Part shown: one piece after another, positions 38,575 through 42,698 of the stretch
Layout: every line of letters begins with the position of its first letter
How positions within the stretch are numbered: position 1 is the stretch's first letter
NCBI RefSeq assembly: GCF_000380125.1
Contig: NZ_KB904583.1
Coordinates: forward strand, 1 to 64,000
DNA length: 64,000 bases
Direction: 5' to 3'
Source: Streptococcus ovis DSM 16829
GTDB lineage: Bacteria > Bacillota > Bacilli > Lactobacillales > Streptococcaceae
Notes under the pieces: generated by a model
Told to the model about the DNA's origin: nothing
Seen by the model: the letters and a program-made list of their open reading frames with translations, nothing else
Databases searched by the model: none
Program-made: the position numbers and the translations under genes

Positions 38575-38611
38575 AATGAGAGATTGAGAGCTAGTCCCAA
38601 TCTCTTTTTTA
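38575..38611. terminator. Bidirectional terminator
   Basis: Stem AGAGATTG / CAATCTCT flanked by an A run and a T run, between the convergent lysR and ABC ATPase genes. Confidence 0.8.
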
Positions 38612-39412
38612 CGCTAAAATTAACTCATCATTCGATAGGACTTGGCCACTATTTTTCTGGAAGAGAGCCATCAAATCTGGAACTGTCAGATTCGCTTTTT
38701 CTTCTCCTTGGACGTCCACAACAATTCGTCCTTGATGTAGCATGACCAGACGGTTGCCGTATTCAATGGCATTTTCCATGTTATGGGTAATCATCAAGGT
38801 TGTCAGTTGGTGGTTGCTCACGATTTTCTGAGTCAATTCCATCACCATATCACTAGTTTTCGGATCTAGTGCTGCTGTGTGTTCATCTAGTAAAAGCAAT
38901 TTGGGTTTCACAAGGGAAGCCATTAAGAGAGTCAAGGCTTGACGTTGACCACCTGATAAAAACTGTGTATCCACTTTGAGACGATTTTCCAGTCCTAGCC
39001 CTAATTCTTTCAGAGATTCTTTGAAAATTTGGCGTTCTTTTTCTTTGACACCCCAGCTCAAGCCACGGGATAGACCACGACGATAGGCAATGGCCATATT
39101 TTCTTCAATGGTCAGTCGAGATGCTGTCCCCATTTTCGGATCTTGGAAAACGCGACTGATGACTTTGGCACGTTTGGCTGCTGGAATATGCTTGATTGAT
39201 TTTCCTTCAAGAAGGATGTCACCTTCATCCACCATGATGGTTCCCGCTAAAGAATTCATTAAGGTAGATTTCCCAGCACCGTTTCCTCCAATGATTGAGA
39301 TAAAATCTCCCTCTGCCACATCTAATTGGAGGCCCTTCAGAACATGATTTTCATTAATCGTTCCTGCTTCAAAGGTTTTATGAATAGATTGAATAGATAA
39401 TAGATTGGTCAT
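38609..39412 (-). CDS. ABC transporter ATP-binding protein (TrpZ-like)
   Basis: About 267 residues. Walker A GGNGAGKST, signature LSGGQRQALTLLMA, Walker B PKLLLLDEHTA (Glu and His switch region ITHNMENAIEYG). The ATG at 39412 (MTNLLSIQ) is chosen because GGAGG lies 8 bases upstream; the GTG at 39421 is part of that site. It pairs with the permease 14 bases upstream and powers the importer. Confidence 0.92.
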   Translation of the reverse strand: MTNLLSIQSIHKTFEAGTINENHVLKGLQLDVAEGDFISIIGGNGAGKSTLMNSLAGTIMVDEGDILLEGKSIKHIPAAKRAKVISRVFQDPKMGTASRLTIEENMAIAYRRGLSRGLSWGVKEKERQIFKESLKELGLGLENRLKVDTQFLSGGQRQALTLLMASLVKPKLLLLDEHTAALDPKTSDMVMELTQKIVSNHQLTTLMITHNMENAIEYGNRLVMLHQGRIVVDVQGEEKANLTVPDLMALFQKNSGQVLSNDELILA

Positions 39413-39425
39413 GTCTGACACCTCC

Positions 39426-40322
39426 TTATGCTTTCTTATTTGTCACTGCTAGTGGTCGAATGTTTAATTTCTTTTGCAATTCTGGTACAAACAAAACCAC
39501 GGCTAGTAAAATGGCTGAGAATAGTTTCACCAAATCAGCATCCATACCCGGTATTTCCAAAATCGCTAAGATAATCAAACGATAGACAACAGAACCCAGT
39601 ACAACTGCTGCTAATCGTTTTCCAATGCTCAAATTACGCAATATCACTTCTGAAATGATAATAGAAGCCAGACCGATAACAATGGTACCCGTACCAGAAT
39701 TCAAGTCTGCATACCCATTGTTTTGTGTTAACAAAGCTCCACACAAGGCAATCAAGCCATTAGAGAGCATATAACCTAAAATCTTCATATTGTCCACATG
39801 AATCCCATTGGCCTCACTCATCGGAATATTATCCCCTGTTGAACGAAGAGCAAGGCCAACCTGTGTTTTCAATAGTAGTGTCAAAAAGAGAATGACCACG
39901 ACCACAAAGATTGCCCCAATTAACATCACTGCGTTGGTTTTTGATAATCCTAATCCTTGCAACTGCGTCACAAGTGTCTCCTGACGCAGGAGGGCGACAT
40001 TGGCTTTGCCTAAGACTTTCAAATTAACTGAGTAAAGACCCGTCAGCGTCACAATCCCTGTTAACAATGCTGGGATTTTTAATTTGGTATGAAGAAGTCC
40101 CGAAGCCAGTCCTGCACCCATCCCTCCTAAAAAGGCAAGGAAGGTAGCGAGTAATGGGTTGGTGCCATTGACAATCCCCACAGCACAGATTGCCGCTCCA
40201 AGAGGATAAGAGCCTTCTGCCGTCAAATCCGCAATATCCAAAATTCGATACGTCAAACACACGCCAATCGCCATGATAGACCATAATAGCCCCTGCGATA
40301 CACTTGATAATATAAGATCCAC
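39426..40322 (-). CDS. ABC transporter permease (TrpY-like)
   Basis: 298 residues with about eight to nine membrane helices, and the branched-chain-type permease segment GDNIPMSEANGIHVDNMKILGYMLSNGLIAL (described in parts: GDN...A..G, then KI.GY). This matches permeases paired with ABC_sub_bind lipoproteins (TrpXYZ-like). One permease gene only, so it should work as a homodimer. 32 bases downstream of the second binding-protein gene. Confidence 0.88.
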   Translation of the reverse strand: MDLILSSVSQGLLWSIMAIGVCLTYRILDIADLTAEGSYPLGAAICAVGIVNGTNPLLATFLAFLGGMGAGLASGLLHTKLKIPALLTGIVTLTGLYSVNLKVLGKANVALLRQETLVTQLQGLGLSKTNAVMLIGAIFVVVVILFLTLLLKTQVGLALRSTGDNIPMSEANGIHVDNMKILGYMLSNGLIALCGALLTQNNGYADLNSGTGTIVIGLASIIISEVILRNLSIGKRLAAVVLGSVVYRLIILAILEIPGMDADLVKLFSAILLAVVLFVPELQKKLNIRPLAVTNKKA

Positions 40323-40354: not shown

Positions 40355-41329
40355 TTATTTTTTATCTGCAACTTGAATCGTTGAGATATCAATGCCTAAT
40401 TGTTTTGCCATTTCTTCATTGATGTGTACATCAACAGACTCTGGATACTGGACTGCCACTTCCGCAGGATCTGCCCCTTCAAGCACTTTTATAGCCATCT
40501 TAGCTGTCTGACGACCTAGCGCGTCATAATTGGTCCCATAGGTCAAGAGGCCACCCGCATCTACCATGTCGGTCGATCCACCAATGACAGGTACTTGATA
40601 TTGTACCGATAGCTCCCCAATCATGGTCATGGTGGAAGCAACTGTATTATCCGTTGGAACAAAAACAGCATCTACATCTTTCATCAAACTCGTAGCAGCA
40701 TCTTGTACATCGTTTGTATTTGAAATACCCTTGACAATTACCTGATAGCCTGCCTTTTTTAATAATTTTTCCGCTTCTTCTACTTGTACTTCTGAGTTTC
40801 TCTCACTTGTTGTATAAAGAATACCCACTGTTTTCGCTTGAGGGACAGCCTGTCCTAACAACTCAACCTGTTCTTCAATCGGGGCTTGGTCACTCGTACC
40901 AGTCAAGAGGCCACCTGGTTTTTTGATACGATCCACCAAGTCAGCAGATACTGGATCCGTCACCGCGGTAAACAGAATCGGAACCTCCATCGAGACTGTT
41001 GCTAAACTCTGCGCTGCAGGTGTTGCTATGGCAAGAACAAGATCATTCTCACCAACTAATTGCTCTGAAATGGTTTGGAGATTAGATTGGTCACCTTGTG
41101 CATTTTGGTAGTCAATTGTGATTTTCTCTCCTTCTTTGTAACCATTTTTTACCAATTCATCCACAAATCCTTCACGTGCTGCGGTCAAGGAATCATGTTC
41201 CATGTATTGCAATATGCCAATTTTTACAGTTTCTTTATCTGTCGAATTTGTTGTTGAACTGCATCCAGCTAAAGCCAAGAGGGCCAGTCCGACCGAAGCT
41301 ATCCGTGTATAATAGGGTAATTCTTTCAT
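40355..41329 (-). CDS. ABC transporter substrate-binding lipoprotein (TrpX-like), 2
   Basis: 324 residues. Lipobox LALAGCSS with the lipid-bearing Cys at about 23. The mature part is a two-lobe ABC_sub_bind (PF04392) domain: KIGILQYMEHDSLTAAREGF, ILFTAVTDPVSADLV, VGILYTTSERNSEVQ, ADAVFVPTDNTVAST. It closely resembles the binding protein encoded just upstream, with a 3-base gap, so the two arose by tandem duplication. Family members bind aromatic amino acids or similar ligands. Confidence 0.9.
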   Translation of the reverse strand: MKELPYYTRIASVGLALLALAGCSSTTNSTDKETVKIGILQYMEHDSLTAAREGFVDELVKNGYKEGEKITIDYQNAQGDQSNLQTISEQLVGENDLVLAIATPAAQSLATVSMEVPILFTAVTDPVSADLVDRIKKPGGLLTGTSDQAPIEEQVELLGQAVPQAKTVGILYTTSERNSEVQVEEAEKLLKKAGYQVIVKGISNTNDVQDAATSLMKDVDAVFVPTDNTVASTMTMIGELSVQYQVPVIGGSTDMVDAGGLLTYGTNYDALGRQTAKMAIKVLEGADPAEVAVQYPESVDVHINEEMAKQLGIDISTIQVADKK

Positions 41330-41332
41330 GAT

Positions 41333-42304
41333 TTATTCCTCTGTTTCATTCAAATTTTCAATGGTTGTTGGATCAATCCCAACTGCCTTAGCCATCTTTT
41401 CATTCACAACGATACTCGCTGTTTCTGGTGTTTGAACTGCTAAATCTGTAGGTTTTTTCCCTTTTAACAATTTTACTGCCAGCTCACCAGCTTGGACTCC
41501 AATACCATGGTAATCGACTCCGTAAGTAAACAAAGCTGCATCAATAACGGCTGCATCACTTCCTATAGCTGGAACTTTCTTCTCCATCAAGATATCACCG
41601 ATTGTCGAAGCTGTCGAAGCAACTGTATTATCTGTTGGAAGGTAAATAGCATCCACCTGACCTGCTAGAGAAGTCATGACTTGTTGTACATCATTAGTTG
41701 TGGTGACTGTTTTAACAACGACTTTCAATCCAGCTTTTTCAAGTGCAGTTTCTGCTTCTTTTGCCTGAACTTCAGAGTTAACCTCGCTTGAATTATAGAA
41801 AATACCAACCGTTTCCGCATCTGGTACAACCTTTAGAAGCATCTCTATTTGTCCCCTCACATCGGTAGCATCAATGGACCCCGTCATATTCCCTGCCGGT
41901 TTCTCTAAAGATTCAACCAAACCAGCTGATACAGGGTCAGTCACTGCTGTAAAAACAGATGGCGTTTCTGTATCGACATTTAAAAGGGCTTGGGCTGCAG
42001 GTGTTGCAATAGCAAAGTTCACATCATTTTCACCTGCCAATTGTTCAACCATTGTTTGAAGATTAGCCTGATCCCCTTGTGCATTTTGGTAATCCACAGT
42101 TAGGTTCTCCCCTTCTTTGTAACCAGCTTCTTCCAAGACTTGTAAAAATCCTTCACGTGATGCGGATAAGGCTTCGTGTTCAGCATACTGGATAATACCA
42201 ATGGATACCTCATCAGACGACGATTTGGTATTATTACTGCACGCAGCCAATGTTACTGCTGAAAAAAGAATAGCAGTTGTAAAGGCAAATGTTTTGAATT
42301 TCAT
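41333..42304 (-). CDS. ABC transporter substrate-binding lipoprotein (TrpX-like), 1
   Basis: 323 residues. Lipobox VTLAACSNN (Cys ~22). ABC_sub_bind domain with VSIGIIQYAEHEALSASREGF, VFTAVTDPVSAGLVESL, VGIFYNSSEVNSEVQ and AIYLPTDNTVAST. First gene of a four-gene unit (binding protein 1, binding protein 2, permease, ATPase). The leader upstream codes for a Tyr-rich peptide with terminator and antiterminator folds, so the ligand is probably tyrosine or another aromatic amino acid rather than tryptophan (inference from the leader). Confidence 0.9.
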   Translation of the reverse strand: MKFKTFAFTTAILFSAVTLAACSNNTKSSSDEVSIGIIQYAEHEALSASREGFLQVLEEAGYKEGENLTVDYQNAQGDQANLQTMVEQLAGENDVNFAIATPAAQALLNVDTETPSVFTAVTDPVSAGLVESLEKPAGNMTGSIDATDVRGQIEMLLKVVPDAETVGIFYNSSEVNSEVQAKEAETALEKAGLKVVVKTVTTTNDVQQVMTSLAGQVDAIYLPTDNTVASTASTIGDILMEKKVPAIGSDAAVIDAALFTYGVDYHGIGVQAGELAVKLLKGKKPTDLAVQTPETASIVVNEKMAKAVGIDPTTIENLNETEE

Positions 42305-42380: not shown

Positions 42381-42420
42381 AAAAATAAGGGACCGCTAGA
42401 TTCAATCTAAACGGTCCCTT
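42381..42420 (-). terminator. Attenuator terminator upstream of the ABC operon
   Basis: GGGACCG / CGGTCCC (42412-42418 with 42389-42395) around an inner TAGATT / AATCTA stem, then TTATTTTT on the minus strand, about 77 bases before the first gene. Confidence 0.85.
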
Positions 42421-42569
42421 TTACAAGCGTAAAACGAAAACAATTGGAGTCTTTCGTGCCCATTTAGATTTTCATCTATGCGGACACACGTCGAAATTAC
42501 CACAGCCACATAGATACAAACAAAACGTTTCCGTGTTTGTATCCATGTTAACCATGTCTACAAACACTA
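42404..42569 (-). promoter_or_regulatory. Alternative-hairpin chain of the tyrosine-leader attenuator
   Basis: Minus-strand segments that can pair in two ways: 42559-42567 with 42533-42541; 42535-42543 with 42513-42521; 42506-42515 with 42474-42483; TAGAT with ATCTA across a GAAA loop near 42466-42478; and AATCTAAA (42463-42470) with TTTAGATT (42404-42411), which would open the terminator. The first segment starts at the last base of the leader stop codon. Confidence 0.65.
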
Positions 42570-42629
42570 TCTAAAGTAGCTGTAGTAATAACGATGATTG
42601 CTAGTTAAGTTCTGACAACTCAATAACAT
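42567..42629 (-). CDS. Tyr/Phe-rich leader peptide
   Basis: ATG at 42629, with GGAG 8 bases upstream, opens a 20-codon frame: MLLSCQNLTSNHRYYYSYFR, stop TAG at 42567. Four Tyr codons and one Phe codon fall within six codons near the end. It lies 34 bases downstream of the -10 element and directly before a chain of alternative hairpins ending in a terminator. Too short for a normal gene; the layout is that of an attenuation leader. Confidence 0.75.
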   Translation of the reverse strand: MLLSCQNLTSNHRYYYSYFR

Positions 42630-42669
42630 AGACCCGTCTCCATTTCTCGTTTCTTTTAAGGTTACTAAG

Positions 42670-42698
42670 ATAATAATACTTTTTTATTCACTTGTCAA
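42670..42698 (-). promoter_or_regulatory. Promoter of the leader-ABC transporter operon
   Basis: TTGACA (42693-42698), 17 bases, TATTAT (42670-42675) on the minus strand: close to the sigma-70 consensus. Confidence 0.8.

Follow-up and report, generated by a model that had tools for sequence, protein, structure and literature searches.

In a 64,000-nt stretch of Streptococcus ovis DSM 16829 (contig NZ_KB904583.1, positions 1 to 64,000; hereafter the window), the minus strand carries what is very likely a ribosome-mediated transcription attenuator. It would sense how much tyrosine is available and regulate an ABC importer of aromatic amino acids, probably tyrosine or phenylalanine. Between 42698 and 42381, ahead of a TrpXYZ-like ABC operon, we confirmed the elements that an earlier note had described from the letters of this DNA: a promoter, a 20-codon leader peptide ending YYYSYFR* (* denotes the stop codon), a terminator and a chain of helices that are alternatives to one another (Table 1). 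All links of the chain (1:2, 2:3, 3:4, 4:5 and 5:T, where T is the terminator) are found in this leader. We also find an additional stem, P1, absent from the earlier note, in which the aromatic-codon and stop region (42588-42568) pairs with 42516-42497. The 281-nt leader folds to -106.4 kcal/mol (z = -9.1), and 0 of 200 dinucleotide shuffles were equally stable. Direct folding of the terminator hairpin gives -20.4 kcal/mol, and an intrinsic terminator accordingly stands before the operon, as in an attenuator. A simple terminator scan of the window returned no hits and missed this hairpin, and a promoter scan alone gave no more hits than chance (2, where shuffles led us to expect 3.4). At gathering score, the sole Rfam match in the window is an L20 ribosomal protein leader (RF00558, 50847-50971, minus strand), with the attenuator leader unmatched.

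Table 1. Features of the leader and operon in the window, and of the tryptophan-codon leader elsewhere in the genome
Feature	Coordinates	Strand	Basis
Sigma-70-type promoter TTGACA-17-TATTAT (-35 42698-42693, -10 42675-42670)	42670..42698	minus	11/12 consensus bases
Shine-Dalgarno-like GGAG of leader ORF	42638..42641	minus	sequence
Leader peptide ORF MLLSCQNLTSNHRYYYSYFR, 20 codons, end YYYSYFR	42567..42629	minus	sequence; frame test
P1a 5′ strand UUACUACAGC, within Tyr codons	42579..42588	minus	MFE fold; covariation
P1b 5′ strand AGAUA, Arg codon and start of stop codon	42568..42572	minus	99.5% of cells paired
Segment 1 GUGUUUGUA, begins within stop codon	42559..42567	minus	covariation and duplex tests
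Segment 2 GAUACAAACAC	42533..42543	minus	covariation and duplex tests
Segment 3 UGUUUGUAUCUAUGUGG, partner 2 or 4; its UAUCU also closes P1b	42506..42522	minus	alignment and duplex tests
P1a 3′ strand GCUGUGGUAA	42497..42506	minus	MFE fold; covariation
Segment 4 GUGUCCGCAUAGAU	42474..42487	minus	4:5 hairpin, covariation and duplex tests
Segment 5 AAUCUAAAUGG	42460..42470	minus	5:T duplex test
Terminator 5′ arm portion pairing with segment 5, CCGUUUAGAUU	42404..42414	minus	5:T5 duplex test
Intrinsic terminator, hairpin 42420-42387 and T tract to 42381	42381..42420	minus	sequence; folding
First solute-binding protein, TrpX-like, Tyr at specificity position	41333..42304	minus	profile and alignment
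Second solute-binding protein, TrpX-like, Tyr at specificity position	40355..41329	minus	profile and alignment
ABC permease (BPD_transp_2)	39426..40322	minus	profile match
ABC ATPase	38609..39421	minus	profile match
Leader (RF04312) of the TrpX paralogue, with the Trp-codon ORF MHTQFITTWQSWRR* just before the motif	L120 2536-2646; genome G000:C18:69195-69305	minus	

To determine helix conservation, we reduced 280 loci to 149 non-redundant leaders. The Streptococcus search contributed 41, the order 75 and a pattern scan 33; in these last 33 the pattern itself fixes part of the tail. Covariation was measured as the share of standard pairs together with the cells changed on both sides, relative to the mean of 200 column shuffles. 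For P1a (standard pairs 0.843; 55 double changes, 20.6 shuffled), 1:2 (0.931; 36, 7.7 shuffled) and 4:5 (0.861; 117, 42.5 shuffled), 0 of 200 shuffles reached the pairing level. The corresponding number was 9 of 200 for 2:3 (0.889; 14, 10.4 shuffled). Helix 3:4 (0.867; 12, 10.3 shuffled) is conserved yet without covariation support, because 191 of 200 shuffles pair at least as well. We also compared duplex energies of true partners with those of cross-species permutations, which ignore relatedness. These kinship-uncorrected permutations gave z values of -12.3 for 1:2, -6.8 for 2:3, -2.5 for 3:4, -18.1 for 4:5 and -12.0 for P1a across the 149 leaders, with +1.1 for 1:3 as a negative control. 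For 5:T, taking as terminator the best hairpin that our script placed before a T run (located in 149/149), native duplexes reach -14.16 kcal/mol against -9.69 when permuted (z -19.6, likewise uncorrected for kinship).

Together, these data show that 1:2, 4:5, 5:T and P1 co-vary. Support for 2:3 is weaker, and 3:4 is backed mainly by conservation, its duplex signal being weak. Segments 1, 2 and 3 vary jointly in some lineages (L182, L187, L189, L286). The antiterminator is mutually exclusive with the terminator, as in an attenuator, although link 3:4 is only weakly supported. A promoter with at least 10 of 12 consensus bases is present in 138 of the 149 relatives, compared with 11% of mononucleotide shuffles. 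The leader frame holds an ATG with an SD-like 4-mer in 138 of 149, whereas the remaining two frames do so in 2 and 0 leaders. The conserved frame and codons thus point to translation of this short ORF, which carries codons of the amino acid that is probably regulated. The earlier note had suggested aligning related leaders to look for compensatory changes and conserved Tyr codons. In our alignment the aromatic tail is conserved and the stems are conserved or covary, and the lack of conservation that it named as speaking against an attenuator is not seen.

We then examined how ribosome position might influence this fold, by folding each leader as far as the terminator's 5′ arm and, to mimic a ribosome, keeping the mRNA unpaired to 12 nt beyond the first A-site base; footprint, equilibrium assumption and truncation point are our own choices. 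The window leader is expected to form 0.89 5:T pairs without a ribosome; placing the A site at -7, -6, -5 or -4 (codons counted back from the stop) raises this to 6.43, 8.95, 9.37 or 9.45, respectively. The number falls to 0.47 at -3 and 0.03 at the stop, such that the leader is predicted to be ON while the A site lies within codons -7 to -4 and nowhere else, and OFF with a ribosome at the stop codon or with none. The two states in the earlier note, a stall at Tyr giving 1:2, 3:4 and 5:T (ON) and a ribosome at the stop giving 2:3 and 4:5 (OFF), are reproduced by this folding. Its overlap of exactly three bases between 2:3 and 3:4 holds, but the exclusivity it considered partial does not appear so, as the two are computed as alternatives in the window leader. 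Because the ON window coincides with Tyr14-Tyr16, its term tyrosine-responsive fits the window species, in which codons -7, -6 and -5 are all Tyr; relatives interchange Tyr and Phe codons. Family means of 5:T pairs trace the same curve (4.6 at -11, 8.7 at -4, 5.0 at the stop). Counting a leader as ON when 5:T exceeds 4:5, equilibrium folding gives a clean switch (ON at -5, OFF at the stop) in 52 of 149 Tyr/Phe leaders, while 61 are ON in both positions, 30 OFF in both and 6 reversed. By computation, ribosome position therefore decides the fold in the window leader, and does so cleanly in these 52 members of the family.

These results suggest a mechanism with three states. On a leader free of ribosomes, P1 and 1:2 would occupy segments 2 and 3, and 4:5 followed by the terminator would form; in this model, P1 should keep the switch OFF for as long as no ribosome is present. 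With ample Tyr-tRNA, a ribosome at the stop codon would cover segment 1, and 2:3, 4:5 and the terminator would form, again leaving the operon OFF. When Tyr-tRNA is scarce, we infer that the ribosome halts while its A site occupies the Tyr-Tyr-Tyr codons (-7 to -5), with P1 melted and segment 1 free. Helices 1:2 and 3:4 would then form, segment 5 would capture the terminator's 5′ arm, and the resulting read-through would turn the operon ON.

The genes behind the leader bear on which amino acid is sensed. Tandem solute-binding proteins (40355-42304) serve one permease and one ATPase; some relatives have a single one (e.g. L036-L038). The name TrpXYZ-like is apt insofar as the ABC genes are TrpX-like, but their specificity residues indicate a probable Tyr/Phe importer rather than a Trp importer. 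Against the profile of the tryptophan-binding protein TrpX (NF041285, curated at 390 bits), the window proteins score 295.7 and 344.4 bits and a paralogue in the same genome (L120) scores 465.6. According to the accessible part of PMC6816091, a Tyr blocks tryptophan in CD0873 (C. difficile, Tyr-binding) and VC_1101 (Phe-bound), and SP1069 has Gln there. We placed this position by alignment; both the distance to Glu-263 and the Gln in SP1069 are consistent with that placement. Among 172 leader-linked binding proteins (near-identical loci included) it is Tyr in 168, Phe in 4 and the Trp-permissive Gln in none; the genome's other TrpX has Gln. A second specificity column (Glu-263 of CD0873) reads as Ser by eye and Thr by MAFFT in the second binding protein; because a local gap makes it unreliable, only the Tyr-279 column was used. 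Both window proteins are nearer to CD0873 (E 4.7e-73 and 1.2e-74) than to SP1069 (3.2e-56 and 7.6e-65). Among 67 distinct leader tails from outside the genus, Tyr or Phe occupies position -7 in 55 and positions -6, -5, -3 and -2 in all 67, and Trp is found at none of these five positions. On codon content and specificity residues we dropped the reading as a Trp importer; the cargo is probably Tyr/Phe, as judged from the specificity residue. Separately, tyrA (prephenate dehydrogenase) is broken at codon 35 by an in-frame TGA (44116-44114, minus strand). If this codon is genuine rather than an error of sequencing, the strain may have to rely on imported tyrosine.

Within Streptococcus, a DNA search matched 133 of 284 genomes (E up to 1e-3). 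Of the same 284, a covariance model trained on 46 leaders recognised 161 and left 123 without a match; the window's own match is by construction, because its leader is among the 46. An ORF with an aromatic tail, for which our script required four or more F/Y within the final nine residues, is present in 110/110 loci fetched from the 133 matched genomes. The usual tail is [YF][YF][YF][SG][YF]FR*, with exceptions at L045 (Glu at -6), L048 (Thr at -6) and L046 (Met at -2). Six leaders, three among these 110 (L050, L065, L066) and three from other searches (L342, L344, L345), are one codon shorter, ending SYF* with the Arg lost, and keep or compensate the RNA letters. The stop is shifted three codons downstream with the RNA segments kept in L006 and, outside the genus, in L171, L178, L194, L195, L197, L198 and L199. 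A TrpX-like binding protein lies downstream in 47 of 49 Streptococcus loci compared with the window genes. The exceptions are L035, at a contig end, and L033, where an ORF that we take to be transposase-like and opposite-strand genes follow, with no importer.

Beyond the genus, the window leader resembles RF02863 ("Enterococcus sRNA 2410"). In a permissive Rfam scan its 47.6 bits fall short of the 61-bit cut-off, and the similarity is significant within its own genome (E 1.0e-6). RF02863 matches 215 of 395 genomes of the order, spanning 52 of 80 genera, and passes the cut-off in 98 genomes; a single genome can hold as many as five copies, and none of 14 control genomes has a match. The leader, of a kind that the earlier note called rare in Firmicutes, is thus no isolated case but widespread in Lactobacillales. 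Of 299 genomes sampled across the class, 27 match, five of them outside the order; of these five, three from one family carry MLLTKQQQHNRFYFSYF and one from another family has a leader ending QLNQYYFSYFR. In a phylum sample the covariance model matched 2 of 249 genomes, both Lactobacillales. Each of three clostridial genomes searched holds a second leader copy. All 90 loci fetched from outside the genus have a leader ORF with an aromatic tail, typically QLNNYYFSYFR*. The QLNN at codons -11 to -8 (L124-L213) is conserved, though written in varying synonymous codons, and is explained neither by Tyr sensing nor by the tested helices. A Lacto-rpoB RNA motif lies on the opposite strand near the leader at Enterococcus-family loci (L124 1197-1255, minus; L126 1959-2017, plus).

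The genes downstream of these leaders are mostly related to aromatic amino acids. With names taken from HMM matches of cluster representatives only, the 90 non-Streptococcus loci precede TrpX-like genes (62), aroE (22), genes with DAHP synthase (3, including L182, where prephenate dehydratase comes first) and aroC (1); the remaining two precede prephenate dehydratase followed by a tyrA-like gene, and another binding protein. The pattern scan of named genomes gave at least 120 stretches. Among the matches listed are Streptococcus (including S. suis, S. mitis and S. pneumoniae), Enterococcus, Tetragenococcus, Vagococcus, Lactobacillus, Atopobacter, Ruoffia, Globicatella, Clostridium and Eubacterium multiforme. 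Downstream are at least 82 TrpX-like genes, 14 aroE, 6 DAHP synthase, 1 aroC, 4 sodium:neurotransmitter-type symporter-like and 5 unassigned-protein-like genes, and at least 8 cases of another gene or no ORF in reach. Among the 80 matches listed, the respective numbers are 55, 9, 5, 1, 3, 4 and 3. The symporter name comes from an HMM match for L245 only. Four loci (L232, L262, L272, L284) are followed by an unassigned gene, of which a fragment from L232 has no Pfam or NCBIfam match.

The TrpX paralogue operon of the same genome (L120) offers a counterpart. Upstream of it lies RF04312, the "trpB ncRNA motif", preceded by a leader ORF with Trp codons (Table 1). In the genus, 41 of 197 genomes have an RF04312 match, which in 23 exceeds the cut-off. 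Among 30 fetched loci, WQSW or WQNW occurs near the leader end in all 30, and the gene behind the leader is TrpX-like in 29 (as read from sequence) and trpB in one. In the masking test, RF04312 leaders are ON in 30/30 with the A site at -6, 27/30 at -3 and 1/30 at the stop. With the ribosome far upstream (-11), 20 of 30 still count as ON (mean 3.6 pairs against 8.8 at -6) by a rule that compares 3:T with 2:3 alone and ignores P1-like pairing. Leader codon and predicted cargo agree twice within this one genome. Whether RF02863 and RF04312 form one Lactobacillales attenuator superfamily seems to us evenly balanced; in such a superfamily, codon swaps at -7 to -5 and -3 would set the amino acid, a ribosome at the stop codon rather than a stalled one would be the OFF effector, and importer duplicates would have inherited cargo-matched leaders.

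The conserved tail could alternatively act as an arrest peptide. TnaC arrests the ribosome with Trp; similarly, free Tyr or Phe might stall the ribosome at or near the stop of QLNN-x-YFSYFR*, covering segment 1 and turning the operon OFF. Consistent with this, the peptide is unusually strongly conserved, beyond what charged-tRNA sensing alone explains, and in the 67 non-genus tails Leu at -10 is written in synonymous codons (CTG 22, TTG 12, CTA 5, TTA 4). Several lines of evidence make such an arrest unlikely, however. First, Y and F swap at several positions. Second, several codons are near-fixed, as RNA pairing would require (TTT at -5 and -2, 65/67 each; AGC, 66; AGA, 61). Third, the six Arg-less leaders and the eight with a shifted stop alter the peptide end while the RNA is kept or compensated. 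Finally, the Trp family has another peptide (WQSWRR) in an unchanged layout.

The label that Rfam gives RF02863 (Gene; sRNA) implies a small RNA acting in trans, for which the operon position would be incidental. The accessible text of PMC5593968 describes a 195-nt E. faecium transcript and two transcripts on a Northern blot, though a terminated leader would yield such a short transcript as well. We consider this reading very improbable, since most loci sit on the same strand close upstream of an aromatic amino-acid gene, antiterminator and terminator co-vary, and 138 of the 149 leaders appear to hold a translatable frame. Least probable of all is a T-box or ligand-binding riboswitch with an incidental short ORF: although S. 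suis trpX is controlled by a Trp T-box (PMC9382623, in the part accessible), we dropped T-box RF00230 because L001 and L038 have no match at E up to 1, the genome's nine T-box matches lie elsewhere, and the ORF keeps its frame and its codon positions, which coincide with the A-site range predicted to be ON.

Leader-peptide attenuators as such are already known. His leader peptides have been described in Firmicutes (PMC2965389, PMC9413887) and an aroF uORF motif in Acholeplasma (PMC8632094); as far as their accessible text goes, these are likewise leader-peptide attenuators outside Proteobacteria, for another amino acid or lineage, and none of the three names an RNA like the window leader. The accessible part of PMC9382623 gives trpX T-boxes as tested in S. 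suis (Trp), predicted in S. pneumoniae and not found in S. pyogenes, where control was left open. Our searches of the open PMC literature turned up no leader peptide of the Tyr/Phe or Trp kind at these operons, nor any paper containing the leader tail sequences searched. If our reading is correct, it would assign a function to the Rfam "sRNA" RF02863 and to the gene-named motif RF04312, make leader-peptide attenuation a main control of aromatic amino-acid genes in an order usually credited with T-boxes, provide a lead on the missing T-box before the trpX-like operon of some streptococci, and correct "TrpXYZ" labels for probable Tyr/Phe importers.

Among known systems, the S. suis trpX T-box likewise attenuates transcription of a TrpX operon, but by direct tRNA sensing and with no leader peptide (PMC9382623, accessible part). 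RF02863 is a similar RNA whose consensus starts in the S-Y-F-R-stop codons; it differs in being filed as an sRNA, and the accessible text of PMC5593968 on it names no leader peptide or attenuation. RF04312 shares with the window leader the aromatic codons at -6/-3, Ser or Asn at -4, the stop, segments 1-2-3 and the terminator, and differs in its Trp codons and in a relay that is shorter (1-2-3-T), lacking segments 4 and 5. In the E. coli trp, his and phe leaders, coupled translation of an ORF with cognate codons selects terminator or antiterminator, through a multi-segment relay in the case of his. There the stalled ribosome masks segment 1, whereas in the window leader this would be done by the ribosome at the stop codon. 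Unlike the E. coli leaders, the window leader would also have a ribosome-free OFF state, provided by P1 over its codons.
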